From assembly GCA_019634195.1 (NCBI GenBank), contig JAHQVV010000103.1, positions 1 to 43,437 on the forward strand: a DNA stretch of 43,437 nt, given 5' to 3'. The notes below the pieces were generated by a model, which worked only from the letters and a program-made list of their open reading frames with translations, did not search any database and was not told where the DNA came from. The DNA comes from Phycisphaeraceae bacterium. GTDB lineage: Bacteria; Planctomycetota; Phycisphaerae; Phycisphaerales; Phycisphaeraceae. Positions 16,479-23,067 of the stretch are shown here, in pieces (positions within the stretch are counted from its first letter, which is position 1; each line of letters begins with the position of its first letter). Made by a program: the position numbers and the translations under genes.

Positions 16479-17987
16479 ATGAATGGTGTTGAAATGCTAC
16501 GACTGCTCGACGGGATCGCCCGCGATCGCAACGTCGACAAGGAAATCCTCATCGCGGACCTCGAGCAGGCCCTCGTTTCCGCCGCGCGCAAACACTTCAA
16601 CGCGATCGATACCGAAGACTTTACCTGCGAGATCGACCGGTTTACCGGCAAGATCGCCATCTGGCGTGAGGACGAAGAGATCCCGCTCGAAGAGCTCGGC
16701 CGGATCCCCGCACAGACCGCTAAGCAAGTCATGATCCAGCGCTTCCGCGAAGACGAACGCGCCGCGATCTTCGACGAATACATCGACCGTGTCGGCGAGC
16801 TGACCACCGGCGTCGCGCAGCGCTACGAGGGCGGGGCATTGGTCGTGCAGATCGGCCGTGCAGAAGGCTTTATGCCTCGCTCGGAACAGATCCCCGGGGA
16901 GCAGCACCAGCCCGGCGAGCGTGTCCGCTGCCTGATCCTCGATGTCCGCGACGCGGGCAACCAAGTCAAGATCGTGCTTTCGCGTGCCGACCCGGAGTTC
17001 ATCCGTCGCTTGTTCGAGGTCGAGGTCCCCGAGGTCAACGAGCGGATCATCGAGATCAAGGCCATGGCCCGTGAGGCCGGCCACCGCACCAAGATCGCCG
17101 TGCAATCCATCGACACCAAGGTCGATGCCGTCGGCGCGTGTGTCGGCGTGCGTGGCAGCCGGATCAAGAACATCGTCGACGAGCTCGGCGGCGAGAAGAT
17201 CGATATCGTCCGCTGGAACGAGTCCAGCCAGATCCTGATTCAGAACGCGCTCAAGCCCGCCGAGGTCGTCGAGATATCGCTGTGCTTCGAGCTGGGCCGG
17301 GCGACCGTCGTGGTCAACGAAGACCAGCTCTCCTTGGCGATCGGCAAGAAGGGCCAGAACGTGCGCCTGGCCGCTCGGCTGACGAACTGGGACGTGGACA
17401 TCCTCACGCCGCAGGAGTTCACCAAGTCGATGGACACGATGGTGCAGACGCTTACCGCGATGGACTTTGTGGACGAGGCGATGGTGGACAAGCTGGCCGC
17501 GCTGGGCGTGATCAGCGTGTTCGACGTCGAAGAAGTCGGCGCCGATTACATGGCCGAGACACTGGGGCTGCCCGACGAGCAGATCACCCAGCTCTTGGAA
17601 GTCGTCTCGTCGCAGGCGAAGATCGTCCAGGAACAGCAGGCCAAGGAAAAAGAAGAGCAAGAGAAGCAGAAACGCGAGGCCCAGGAGATGGCAGCGCAAG
17701 GCATCGACGACCTGCTCGGCGGTGGCGCGCTGGCCGACGAGGGCGACGACCCGCTCGCGGATGTGCTTGGCGGCGGTGCTCAGGAGCCGCGCGAGTACGG
17801 CGAGCCGGGCGAAGACCTTGTCCCCGAGGCAGACATTGCCAGCGAAGCGGCCGAGAACGGCGAGCCGGTCGACCCCGGCGTGCAGGCCGAGGAGTCGGAC
17901 GATGAGGACGGCAGCGAGTTTGTCGCCGAGCACACCGACTCGGATGCCGGCGTCGTGTCGGACCCCGAGGACAGCAAGAGCGCGTAA
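16479..17987 (+). CDS. nusA: Transcription termination/antitermination factor NusA
   Basis: NusA binds RNA polymerase and nascent RNA and modulates pausing, termination and antitermination. The 502-residue product has the NusA N-terminal domain (1-105), an S1 domain (about 107-172, ending VKIVLSRADPEF), KH1 (about 200-275, DAVGACVGVRGSRIKNIVDELGGEKIDIVRW), KH2 (about 280-345, ending DQLSLAIGKKGQNVRLAARLTNWDVDI) and a C-terminal helical region (about 350-395). A Glu/Gln/Lys coiled segment and a long acidic tail follow. It leads the infB-rbfA cluster. The usual upstream rimP is not present here; a non-coding leader with promoter and terminator-like hairpin takes its place. Confidence 0.96.
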   Translation: MNGVEMLRLLDGIARDRNVDKEILIADLEQALVSAARKHFNAIDTEDFTCEIDRFTGKIAIWREDEEIPLEELGRIPAQTAKQVMIQRFREDERAAIFDEYIDRVGELTTGVAQRYEGGALVVQIGRAEGFMPRSEQIPGEQHQPGERVRCLILDVRDAGNQVKIVLSRADPEFIRRLFEVEVPEVNERIIEIKAMAREAGHRTKIAVQSIDTKVDAVGACVGVRGSRIKNIVDELGGEKIDIVRWNESSQILIQNALKPAEVVEISLCFELGRATVVVNEDQLSLAIGKKGQNVRLAARLTNWDVDILTPQEFTKSMDTMVQTLTAMDFVDEAMVDKLAALGVISVFDVEEVGADYMAETLGLPDEQITQLLEVVSSQAKIVQEQQAKEKEEQEKQKREAQEMAAQGIDDLLGGGALADEGDDPLADVLGGGAQEPREYGEPGEDLVPEADIASEAAENGEPVDPGVQAEESDDEDGSEFVAEHTDSDAGVVSDPEDSKSA

Positions 17988-18053: not shown

Positions 18054-20816
18054 TTGGCGAAAACGTTACGCATCCATAACCTGGCCAAAGAGCTCGGCGT
18101 GCAGAGCAAGGTCATCGTCGCCAAGTGCAAAGACGAGGGCGTGCCCGATATCACCAACCACATGTCGGTGGTGAAGGTCGGCCTTGCGCACACGATCCGC
18201 CAGTGGTTCGCGCTGGACGAAGAGGACCACAGCAAAGACACCGCGGTCGAGACGACGCACAACATCGACATCAAGAAGGTCCGCAAGAAGTCCACGAAGA
18301 AGAAGGCGGCCAAGAAGAAAGCCGCGGCGAAGGAGACCGACGCAAAAGCCGAGGTCGTCGCGGATGAATCCGCAGAGGCCGAAACCAAGACCAAAAAGAA
18401 GACCACCAAGAAGAAAACCAAGGCCGCGGCGAAGAAGAAGCCCACTGCGGATGAGCCTGCCGAGGCTGCGGAAGTCGTGGCCGAAGCAGACGCGAAGCCC
18501 GCCGCCGAAGAGAAGGCGCCCGAGAAAGAACCCGAGAAGCCCGGCCAGGCCCAGCCCGCGGGGCAACAGAACGTGCCGACCCGGCCGGACATCGTCAAGC
18601 CCGCCGGCGAACAGCTCACCAAACCCAAAGAAGTCAAGCTCCGTGGCCCGAAGGTCATCCGTGTCGAGAAGCCCGAGCCCGTCGCGCCGCCGCGATCGCG
18701 CGGCCCGAGGCGTGACCAGCCCGCCGACGGCGAGGTGCCCGGCGTGACCCGATCGCGTGGCCCGGCCCGTGGCGGCGGCGTCAAGCGTGGCGGCGGCGAG
18801 GGCGGCGGCGGCGACAGCGGCGGACGCGGCAACAAGCGGCGCTCCCTCAGCAACCGACGCGGCGGACGCAACGACCCCTTACTCACCGGCCCGACACAGA
18901 TGTCCAAGGCCGACCTCGACGAACTGGATGCGAAGGTCCGCGGTGCCTCCGGCTACGTCAAGCGACGCCGTCAAACGTTCAATAAAGCAGGCCATGTCGG
19001 TTCCGCCGCCCAGTCTGCGGTCGTCACCGGCGGCAAGGTCGAGATCGAAGAACCGATCACGATCAAGGCACTCAGCTCCGCCACCGGTATCCGCGCCGCC
19101 GAGGTCGTGAAGTTCCTCTTCCAGAAGGGGATCATGGCCAACGTCAACTCGGCGATCGAGACCGAGCTGGCCGAAGAAATCTGCCTCGAGCGCGACATCG
19201 AGCTCGTCGTCAAGGAACACGAGACCGCCGCACAGAAGGTCGAGCAGGACTTCATGGATCGCGAGAAGGTCGATGTCCAGCCAAGGCCCGCGGTCGTCAC
19301 GATCCTCGGCCACGTCGACCACGGCAAGACCTCGCTGCTCGACCGGATCCGCAAGGCCGACGTCGCCGCGCACGAAGACGGCGGCATCACCCAGCACGTG
19401 GGCGCCTACCGCATCACCGTCAAGGGCAGCGACGACTCAGACAAGTCCGTCGTCTTCCTCGACACGCCAGGCCACGCCGCGTTTACCTCGATGCGTGCCC
19501 GCGGTGCCCAGGTCACCGACATCGTCGTGCTCATCGTGGCGGCGGACGACGGCGTCATGCCCCAGACGATCGAGTCGATCAACCACGCCAAGGCCGCGGA
19601 GGTCCCCGTGGTCGTCGCGGTCAACAAGTGCGACCTGCCCGGATTCAGCGACAACAAGCTGCAAGAGATCTACGGCCAGCTCGCTGAGCATGGGCTCAAC
19701 CCCACCGCATGGGGCGGCGAGACCGAAGTCATCAAGACCTCGGCCGAGACCGGCGAAGGCATCGAAGAACTCATCGAGATCCTCGACCTGCAGGCCGAGG
19801 TCCTCGAACTCACCGCCGACTACGGCGGCCCGGCGCGCGGCATCGTCATCGAGGGCGAGATGCAATCGGGACGGGGTTCCGTCGCTCGCGTACTGGTTCA
19901 GGACGGCACGATCAGGGTCGGCGACTTCATGGTCTCCGGCCGGGCGTTCGGCCGTGTCCGCGACATGACCAACGACCGTGGCGAGCAGGTGCAAGAAGCC
20001 GGCCCCGCGACGCCGCTGGAGATCTCCGGCCTCGACGAGATCCCCGACGCGGGCGACAAGTTCTACGTGACCCAGACGCTGAAGAAGGCCGAAGGCGTTG
20101 CCAGGCAGTTCCGTGATGACGAGCGTGCCCAGGCCCAAGCCAGCCGCACGAAAGTCACGATGGACAACTTCGCCGCGACGATCCAGGCGGGCAAGACCAA
20201 CTTCCTCAACGTCGTCATCAAGGCCGATGTGCAGGGCTCGGTCGAGACGCTCAAGAAGTCGCTCGGCGAGATCGGCAACGACGAGGTCGCCGTCCGCGTC
20301 ATCGACTCGGGTGTCGGCGGGATCACCGAGAGCAACGTGTTGCTCGCGGATGCGTCGGACGCCGTTATCATCGGTTTCCATGTCACGGTTACCCCGGCCG
20401 TGCGTGAGATCGCAGACGAGCGCCACGTCGAGGTGCGGCAGTACCGCGTGATCTACGAGACGATCGAGGACGTGAAGAAGGCCCTCGAGGGCATGCTGAC
20501 GCCGGACCAGAACGAGGAAGAGATCGGCCGAGCGGAAGTGAAGCAGGTCTTCAAGATCGGCAAGCTCGGCAACATCGCCGGCTGCATGGTGTCCGACGGC
20601 GTCGTGCAGAAGGGCCAGAAGATGCGCGTCGTCCGCGACGGCACGGTCGTCACCGAGGGCCGCGAGCTCGAGACCCTCCGCCGCGTGAAGGACGAGGCGA
20701 AGGAAGTCCGTGCGGGTACCGAGTGCGGCATCCGCATCGCCGGCTACGAAGACCTCAAGCCCGGCGACGAGCTGGTTTGTTACAAGGTCGTCGAAGTGAA
20801 GAGGACGCTGGATTAG
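18054..20816 (+). CDS. infB: Translation initiation factor IF-2
   Basis: IF-2 is the GTPase that brings initiator tRNA to the 30S subunit and promotes subunit joining. The start is TTG at 18054, with AGGAG at 18043-18047. The 920-residue product has an IF2_N domain (residues 3-50), then Lys/Ala/Thr-rich low complexity (about 75-145), and an Arg/Gly-rich linker (about 220-280). A second IF2_N-like domain (about 325-375) precedes the G domain with GHVDHGKT (419-426), [15 protein letters not shown] and NKCD. The C-terminal beta-barrels and domain IV end at VVEVKRTLD. The Lys-rich N-terminal segment resembles the histone-like tail of the HhH protein two genes downstream. Confidence 0.97.
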
Positions 20817-20897: not shown

Positions 20898-21281
20898 ATG
20901 ACCCACCGCATCGAACAAGTCGAGTCGACGCTCCGCAAGGCGCTGGCCCAGGTGCTACAACGCAGCATCTCGGACCCGCGCATCCGCGGCATGGTGTCGA
21001 TCCTTGAGGTCGATATTAGCCCGGACATGAAGCAGGCCAAGGTCTTTGTCTCTGTACTCCCCGAGGAGTACGAGAAGCGGACGGTCGCAGGCCTCAAGGC
21101 GGCGAACCGGCACATCCAGAGCGAAGTGAAGAAGCTCGTGGCGCTGCGCGTGGTGCCGCACCTGAAATTCGAGCTCGATGATTCGCTGAAGCAGGCCGAG
21201 CAGGTCTACCAGGCCATCGACGAAGCCAAAGCTCGCGAAGAAGAAAACACCGACGACAACGCGCAATCGCAGACAGACTAA
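20898..21281 (+). CDS. rbfA: Ribosome-binding factor A
   Basis: RbfA binds the 30S subunit and helps mature the 5' end of 16S rRNA, notably in the cold. The 127-residue product shows MTHRIEQVESTLRKALAQVLQRSISDPRI, then VSILEVDISPDMKQAKVFVSVL and HIQSEVKKLVALRVVPHLKFELDDSLKQAEQV, the KH-like RbfA fold. It ends with an acidic tail (EEENTDDNAQ). Length is normal. It lies between infB and the HhH protein in one direction, as in many bacteria for infB-rbfA. The ATG at 20898 has no visible Shine-Dalgarno sequence and sits against an inverted repeat. Confidence 0.94.
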   Translation: MTHRIEQVESTLRKALAQVLQRSISDPRIRGMVSILEVDISPDMKQAKVFVSVLPEEYEKRTVAGLKAANRHIQSEVKKLVALRVVPHLKFELDDSLKQAEQVYQAIDEAKAREEENTDDNAQSQTD

Positions 21282-21312: not shown

Positions 21313-22125
21313 TTGGCAAAGACCGATACAAAGAAACAAGAAAAGGCATTTAATGCGGTGCTGAAGAAAGCCCGTTCCAAGTGGAGCGGCGATGAGGCCG
21401 ACGAGCTCGAGCCCATCGCCGAGCTGGTCTTCAGCTTCCTCATGTGGAACGCGACCGCACGGCAGGCGGACACGGCCTTCGGGAAGATCATGGCCCAGGT
21501 GGTCGACCTCAACGAGCTGCGCGTCTCGCTGACCAACGAGATCATCGAGATGGTCGGTGTGCGGTACCCCGATGCGAGCAACCGCATCATCCGCATGCTC
21601 CAGTCGATGATGGAGATCTTCGAACGCGAGCACGACTACAAGATGGGCTCGCTGGCCCCGCGCAGCAAGCGTGAGCAGCGCGAGTACCTGGACACGCTGC
21701 CGGGGATGACGCCGTTTGTCGCCGCTCGGGTGGCGTTGCTGTCGTTCGGTGCCCACGCCATGCCGGTGGACGACCGCCTGCTGACGCTGCTGACCAAGGC
21801 CGGCGTCTTCGAGCCCGGCACGACACCCGCCGACGCGGAGGGCTGGCTGACCCGTCAGGTCAAGGCCGGCGACGCGATGGAGGCGTACCTCGCGCTGCAG
21901 GAATGGGCCGACGGCCAACGTGTGACGATCCCCAGCCCGCCGAAGGGCGAGGTCTTCAAATCCGCGCCGGTCAAGGAAGAGCCCGCGAAGAAGACTAAGA
22001 AGTCCGCGACAACGAAGAAGGCTGCGACGACCAAGAAGGTCGCCAAGAAGACCACGAAGAAGAAAATCGCCAAGAAAACCACGAAGAAGAAGACCACCAA
22101 GAAACGCGTCGCCAAGAAGAAGTGA
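21313..22125 (+). CDS. HhH-GPD-like protein with histone-H1-like Lys-rich tail
   Basis: The 270-residue product (TTG start, AGGA 9 bases upstream) has a helical N-terminal core. A helix-hairpin-helix segment LDTLPGMTPFVAARVALLSFG (127-146) is followed by MPVDDRLL (150-157), the arrangement of the endonuclease III superfamily in which the Asp is catalytic. The Lys that bifunctional enzymes carry in LPGVGRK is Phe here (LPGMTPF), and I see no iron-sulphur Cys cluster. Residues about 216-270 are almost only Lys, Thr and Ala (KKTTKKK repeats), like bacterial Hc1/H1-type tails that bind DNA or RNA. It could be a glycosylase relative or a nucleoid/ribosome-associated protein. Its place between rbfA and hisG is unusual. 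Confidence 0.75.
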   Translation: MAKTDTKKQEKAFNAVLKKARSKWSGDEADELEPIAELVFSFLMWNATARQADTAFGKIMAQVVDLNELRVSLTNEIIEMVGVRYPDASNRIIRMLQSMMEIFEREHDYKMGSLAPRSKREQREYLDTLPGMTPFVAARVALLSFGAHAMPVDDRLLTLLTKAGVFEPGTTPADAEGWLTRQVKAGDAMEAYLALQEWADGQRVTIPSPPKGEVFKSAPVKEEPAKKTKKSATTKKAATTKKVAKKTTKKKIAKKTTKKKTTKKRVAKKK

Positions 22126-22179: not shown

Positions 22180-23067
22180 ATGGGTGAAGACAATCAACCG
22201 CTACTGAAGATCGGCCTGCCTAAGGGCTCGCTCGAGAGCCCGACGATCGAGCTCTTCGACCGCGCGGGCTACAACATCAACGTCCGCAGCCGGTCCTACA
22301 CCCCCGAGATCGACGACCCGCTTTTGTCGTGCGTCATGTTCCGCGCCCAGGAGATGGCCCGCTACGTCGAGGACGGCGTCATCGACATCGGCATCACCGG
22401 CCACGACTGGGTCGTCGAAAACGACGCCGACGTCCACGAGGTCTGTGAGCTCGCGTACTCCCGCGCGACAGGCCGGCCCGTGCGGTGGGTCCTCGCGGTC
22501 CCGGAAGAGGGCGGCATCGACGACCCCAAGCAGCTCGAGGGCAAGATCATCTCCACCGAGTTGATCAATACCACGCAGCGCTATTTCAAAGACCAGGGCA
22601 TCAACGTCCGCAAGGTCGAGTTCTCCTGGGGCGCGACCGAGGTCAAGGCCCGGCTTGTCGACGCCATCGTCGATGTCACCGAGACCGGTTCGTCCCTGCG
22701 TGCCAACAACCTCAAGGTCATCGCGACCCTGCTGACCTCGACGACCCGCCTGATCGCGAGCAAAGACGCATGGGCGGATAAAGCCAAGCGGCAGAAGATC
22801 GAGGACCTGGCGCTATTGCTGCAGGGCGCGATCTCGGCACGCACCAAGGTCGGCCTGAAGATGAATGTGCCCCGGCCCAAGCTCGACGAGGTGTTGGCGC
22901 TGCTCCAGTCCGAGCACTCGCCGACGATCAACGACCTGGCCGACGCCGATTGGGCGGCGGTCGAGGTGATCACCGACGAGAAGATCGAGCGCGACCTGAT
23001 CCCCCAGCTCAAACGGGCCGGCGCGACGGGCATGGTCAGTTACCCGCTGAATAAAGTGATCCAATAG
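22180..23067 (+). CDS. hisG: ATP phosphoribosyltransferase, long form
   Basis: HisG joins ATP and PRPP in the first step of histidine synthesis. The 295-residue product is the long, self-contained form. The catalytic part (1-215) shows LKIGLPKGSLESPTIELFDRAGY, DIGITGHDWVVEN and VDAIVDVTETGSSLRANNLKVI (PRPP-binding). The C-terminal regulatory domain (about 220-290) shows MNVPRPKLDEVLALL and KIERDLIPQLKRAGATGMVSYPLNKVI, where histidine is expected to bind for feedback inhibition. It follows the HhH gene after 54 bases and precedes the TPR gene. No other his gene is in the window. Confidence 0.96.
   Translation: MGEDNQPLLKIGLPKGSLESPTIELFDRAGYNINVRSRSYTPEIDDPLLSCVMFRAQEMARYVEDGVIDIGITGHDWVVENDADVHEVCELAYSRATGRPVRWVLAVPEEGGIDDPKQLEGKIISTELINTTQRYFKDQGINVRKVEFSWGATEVKARLVDAIVDVTETGSSLRANNLKVIATLLTSTTRLIASKDAWADKAKRQKIEDLALLLQGAISARTKVGLKMNVPRPKLDEVLALLQSEHSPTINDLADADWAAVEVITDEKIERDLIPQLKRAGATGMVSYPLNKVIQ

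Follow-up and report, generated by a model that had tools for sequence, protein, structure and literature searches.

A putatively non-catalytic endonuclease III relative encoded in translation operons of the Planctomycetota

Introduction

By sequence profile, the closest solved structures to the protein family described here are DrEndoIII1 (Deinococcus radiodurans DR2438; PDB 8a5f/4unf) and DrEndoIII3 (PDB 8a5g/4uob). DrEndoIII3 binds damaged DNA (PMC9268735), yet it has no detectable endonuclease III (EndoIII) activity though its catalytic Lys and Asp are kept (PMC10523315, PMC9268735), and it is therefore a precedent for inactive EndoIII relatives. The family, which we call X, is that of a 270-residue protein encoded at positions 21313-22125 of a 43,437-nucleotide stretch of Phycisphaeraceae DNA (contig JAHQVV010000103.1; the whole stretch is referred to as the window). 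We have compared X across the phylum (Planctomycetota) and within the class (Phycisphaerae) of the window's genome. Conservation and gene context tilt the balance modestly in favour of X being a non-catalytic protein of the EndoIII fold that was recruited to translation and that would partly fill the niche left by RimM and RimP in 30S maturation. The literature searched, which left out most subscription journals, contained no description of X.

Conserved and drifting residues of X

Residues were counted over 131 aligned members of X, 130 of them with letters. Arg70 is invariant (130/130), Asn67 is Asn in 128/130, Asp65 is Asp in 124/130, and Val71 is Val in 115 of the aligned members (130 with letters), giving the consensus V-D-[LWFY]-N-[ED]-[LV]-R-V. 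The Asn and Arg of this motif are the only invariant columns of the phylum-wide alignment (A3), and the D-x-N-[E/D]-x-R-V motif was found in 0/50 sampled canonical proteins of the HhH-GPD superfamily (HhH, helix-hairpin-helix).

The positions that define a glycosylase are far less constant. The hairpin of the window protein is degenerate (PGMTPF, with G-M-T instead of G-h-G), its second Gly being replaced by Thr, and Gly is found at this position in 9/130 members. The catalytic Asp is Asp in 75/130 members and is replaced by Asn, Thr, Ser, His or others in 55/130. The position of the lyase Lys is occupied by Phe135 in the window protein, by Tyr or Phe in 87/130 members, and by Tyr or Phe in 76/81 members of the class. 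Judged from these alignments, the conserved feature of X is the D-x-N-[E/D]-x-R-V motif and not the glycosylase site, which drifts. The core of X is also acidic, with a median isoelectric point (pI) of 5.9 in the class versus 9.4 for Nth; this speaks against continued use of the old DNA-binding face.

An earlier sequence-only reading of the locus had seen in this protein the HhH plus Asp arrangement of endonuclease III, a Phe in place of the lyase Lys and no iron-sulphur (Fe-S) Cys cluster. The Phe and the missing cluster are borne out, and so is the Asp (Asp153); the hairpin half of the arrangement holds only in degenerate form. The Fe-S Cys pattern (4Fe-4S loop) is absent from the window protein and from every class member, and many X members outside the class retain a C-x6-C-x2-C-x5-C loop, a distribution that fits an origin from an Fe-S endonuclease III and subsequent loss. 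Outside the class, in L119, L120, L122, L124, L128, L150 and other lineages, the loop is kept and the catalytic Asp or the hairpin is often lost; cluster and catalysis were therefore lost separately.

These residues bear directly on the alternative that X works as a monofunctional DNA glycosylase on a changed substrate, with an aromatic residue replacing the lyase Lys, Asp still activating water and the operon position being incidental. The Asp153 equivalent is present in the window protein and in 58/81 class members altogether, the aromatic residue is kept in the class, and the best named NCBIfam family for X is a monofunctional DNA glycosylase (NF053634, DR2438); that match, however, reaches 26.6 bits against a cut-off of 400. 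With the Asp replaced in so many members, the hairpin Gly lost, the core acidic, the most constant residues lying elsewhere, and true glycosylases showing no translation linkage, we regard this alternative as unlikely.

Relationship to endonuclease III

The full-length window protein has no Pfam match at E ≤ 1, and so no HhH-GPD (PF00730) domain above the cut-off. Its core alone matches PF22175 at E 0.016, under the cut-off, and PF00730 is matched by 4/45 phylum members of X, at best with 9e-4. A single-sequence search of the PDB is likewise weak (E 0.011). The profile of 46 X relatives, on the other hand, matches Deinococcus EndoIII-1 in the PDB at E 1.9e-14, the phylum-wide profile does so at E 6e-24, and hhalign pairs X with the phylum's canonical Nth over 183 columns (98.6% probability, E 6.6e-16). 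These profile comparisons indicate that the common ancestry of X and EndoIII, as a lengthwise homology, is real, though a single sequence hardly shows it. The description "HhH-GPD-like" given in the sequence-only reading is thus right as to ancestry; it misleads as to preserved function, since the hairpin and the catalytic residues drift and another motif is near-invariant.

In a quick phylogeny, from which the X clade was taken, X forms one clade (Shimodaira-Hasegawa-like approximate likelihood ratio 95), separate from Nth, from MutY and from a third HhH-GPD clade, on much longer branches. Nth and MutY, both scoring above NCBIfam cut-offs, are also present in the window's own genome, together with a third HhH-GPD protein, and repair therefore does not explain the retention of X. 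The ratio of non-synonymous to synonymous substitution rates against the nearest relative (L003) is 0.085, so purifying selection acts on the coding region. The open reading frame proposed earlier is real, and its TTG start is supported by homologues that begin at the equivalent place, about 62 residues ahead of the D-x-N-E-x-R motif. One genome carries a second X-like match (G377:C5:320211-320765); its 617-residue open frame is still recognised by Pfam HhH-GPD, and it is possibly an intermediate or a paralogue.

Gene neighbourhood

In the class, rbfA lies directly upstream of X on the same strand in all 43 loci that hold the upstream side. The gene product neighbours in the window are RbfA and HisG, as had been noted from the sequence alone. 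In the class rbfA is the constant partner; hisG follows X in most, not all, class loci, and since several have rbfA adjacent and not hisG, the importance first given to the hisG neighbour was dropped.

Outside the class, 49 X loci were inspected, two of which are the same place in one genome, and the identities of the neighbouring genes were verified with Pfam. On the same strand, rbfA-infB, rpsP (S16), yebC, hisG or prfA-prmC accompanies X in 43/49 of these loci. Within 1.5 kb the neighbour set is found at 42/49 X loci versus 0/50 canonical HhH-GPD loci (Fisher p 5e-21, a value that makes the contrast look too strong because X loci were used in part to choose the set; that X changes repeatedly from one translation operon to another is independent of it). 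Across the phylum X switches among four or more operons of the translation type and keeps to the same strand in every case; rpsP-X-maf-...-prfA, X-yebC-gatC-gatA and rbfA-X-hisG are typical layouts. The tie to ribosome or translation work that had been suggested from a single locus is thereby supported well beyond it.

X is found directly upstream of yebC in about 12 lineages (L126, L167, L233, L243, L247, L249, L252, L263, L265-L269). It comes directly after rpsP in L122, L127, L234, L253, L254 and L270; in L122 maf comes next and prfA lies further downstream.

This variety also leaves room for X working in translation outside 30S assembly, for example as an elongation, rescue or termination factor together with YebC or RF1, or as a transcription-translation link near NusA and IF2. 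The yebC adjacency and the presence of prfA/prmC further downstream in other lineages would fit such a role, and YebC is a translation factor (PMC12234827, PMC11990639). In the remaining lineages, however, rbfA and rpsP are the closest neighbours, and we judge this role to be rather improbable, if slightly less so than an active glycosylase.

Distribution of X, RimM and RimP

Matches to X are present in 234/248 class genomes (191/193 of the good ones), and X also occurs in many groups of the phylum outside the class; the four relatives that carry names are entered as Phycisphaera, Phycisphaeraceae and Phycisphaerales. At least one group of some size (f66), with a few others, has canonical paralogues only and no X. 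A broader count of 318/343 phylum genomes was set aside since it includes canonical paralogues, the motif separating the two kinds. No relative was detected among the viral contigs searched, and the plasmid search gave two weak matches only. From these searches, X is a family kept across much of the phylum and missed by Pfam and NCBIfam.

The RimM model PF01782 matched in 0/98 phylum genomes, all but the window's own being at least 95% complete, and a second, independent model, TIGR02273, matched in 0/59. RimP was found in 5/96 phylum genomes, always as a weak match, and was undetectable in 91/96. RbfA, the positive control, was recovered by the same search in 59/59 phylum genomes, and RimM, RimP and RbfA were all detected in 10/10 bacterial control genomes. 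By these model searches RimM and RimP, both of them factors of 30S maturation, seem to have been lost or transformed in the phylum. A strict replacement of RimM by X was considered and is weakened, since f66 and the few other groups without X are also without RimM and RimP; X is therefore not a simple replacement for RimM.

The Lys-rich tail

The 55-residue Lys/Thr/Ala tail reported earlier is present as described, with 25 Lys, 11 Thr and 8 Ala in residues 216-270, and the pI of the whole window protein is 9.9. Across the family, a tail of at least 20 residues with at least 25% Lys plus Arg occurs in 78/120 members. IF2 (18054-20816) and a trigger-factor-like protein (G000:C69, L201) of the same genome carry similar Lys/Thr/Ala-rich stretches, and such tails seem to be a general habit of translation-related proteins in this genome. 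Because the tail varies and is common to unrelated proteins, it was dropped as a defining feature of X.

The tail and the DNA-binding ancestry of X would suit a nucleoid-associated, H1-like protein, in which the tail compacts DNA and the old glycosylase domain serves as a non-specific DNA clamp, and the high pI of the whole protein points the same way. Such a protein is hard to reconcile with an acidic core, a degenerate hairpin, tails that differ in length and charge and are missing from some members, similar tails on IF2 and the trigger-factor-like protein, and a neighbourhood of translation rather than chromosome maintenance. We consider it the least probable of the alternatives, and the nucleoid role raised in the sequence-only reading is not favoured by the gene context. 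That reading had also suggested a new nucleic-acid-binding protein: a new family is supported, but binding by the acidic core is doubtful and binding by the Lys-rich tail more likely.

Features of the locus

Table 1. Coordinates, in window positions, of the gene of family X, its parts and its neighbours
Feature	Position	Strand	Basis or remark
X gene, coding for a 270-aa protein of the endonuclease III fold that ends in a Lys-rich tail	21313..22125	+	TTG start, stop included
X core domain, residues 1-207, acidic lengthwise endonuclease III homologue	21313..21933	+	profile comparisons, pI
D65-L-N67-E-L-R70-V71, family-defining motif, near-invariant across the phylum	21505..21525	+	alignment counts
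Degenerate helix-hairpin-helix LPGMTPFVAARVA, with Phe135 at the lyase-Lys position and Thr133 at the second hairpin Gly	21697..21735	+	
Asp153, at the place of the catalytic Asp in HhH-GPD glycosylases, kept in the window protein	21769..21771	+	
Histone-H1-like Lys/Thr/Ala tail, residues 216-270	21958..22122	+	composition
rbfA, 31 bp upstream of X	20898..21281	+	constant partner in the class
infB (IF2), second gene upstream of X, with its own Lys-rich N-terminal stretch	18054..20816	+	
nusA, upstream of infB-rbfA-X	16479..17987	+	
hisG, downstream of X here and in many, not all, relatives	22180..23067	+	

Discussion

The sequences show that X shares its ancestry with EndoIII, that its catalytic site has drifted, that its motif is near-invariant and that it stays linked on the same strand to rbfA-infB, rpsP, yebC and prfA. 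We propose that X arose from an HhH-GPD enzyme of the endonuclease III type, gave up glycosylase chemistry and was recruited to translation. The D-x-N-E-x-R-V face would be the surface by which X docks on the translation machinery, its partner there probably being the small subunit or an assembly factor (RbfA or S16), and the Lys-rich tail would be a flexible, loose anchor on rRNA; the similar tails of IF2 and the trigger-factor-like protein may act alike. The most likely specific job of X would be small-subunit maturation, partly filling the RimM/RimP niche. The more explicit version, in which X would serve this phylum alone as a factor of ribosome assembly or translation, built from a decayed DNA glycosylase, would dock by its motif face on the small subunit or RbfA and would help a phylum that has lost RimM and RimP to mature its 30S subunits, is put forward tentatively, as a possibility to which we give less than even weight.

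Several points weigh against recruitment to translation as a non-catalytic protein. The role is read from gene context and conservation; hisG, though often found beside X, is no translation gene; f66 and the few other X-less groups manage without RimM and RimP alike; and the Lys-rich tail is unspecific. With the Asp153 equivalent kept in the window protein and most of its class, residual base-excision activity is still conceivable. The AlphaFold2 model, built from five sequences, is too poor to place the motif (mean predicted local distance difference test score 45.8, predicted template modelling score 0.27).

If the recruitment of X to translation is true, a DNA-repair fold has entered protein synthesis and has been retained in much of a phylum, unnoticed by Pfam and NCBIfam. 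The apparent lack of RimM and, in almost all genomes, of RimP makes the small-subunit maturation route of this phylum a directly testable question.

Comparison with known systems

Endonuclease III (Nth; TIGR01083, PF00730) resembles X in its lengthwise homology and in the helix pair around the hairpin, and its C-x6-C-x2-C-x5-C Fe-S loop is shared with many X members outside the class. X differs from it in that the lyase Lys is replaced, the hairpin Gly is lost, the Asp is often lost and the core is acidic, and X has in addition its new D-x-N-E-x-R-V motif, its translation operons and its separate clade. DrEndoIII1, unlike X, is without this motif and reads DWDAITLAP in the profile alignment, and DrEndoIII3, unlike X, keeps the catalytic residues. 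The X profile also matches the glycosylase domain of the plant DNA demethylase ROS1 (E 1.1e-16, mid-domain), a large eukaryotic enzyme to which the homology extends to the fold only. With the 30S maturation factors RbfA and RimM there is no sequence or fold relation, and any similarity would be functional, as a hypothesis: X shares operons with rbfA, and elsewhere it comes after rpsP, the gene that precedes rimM in many bacteria.
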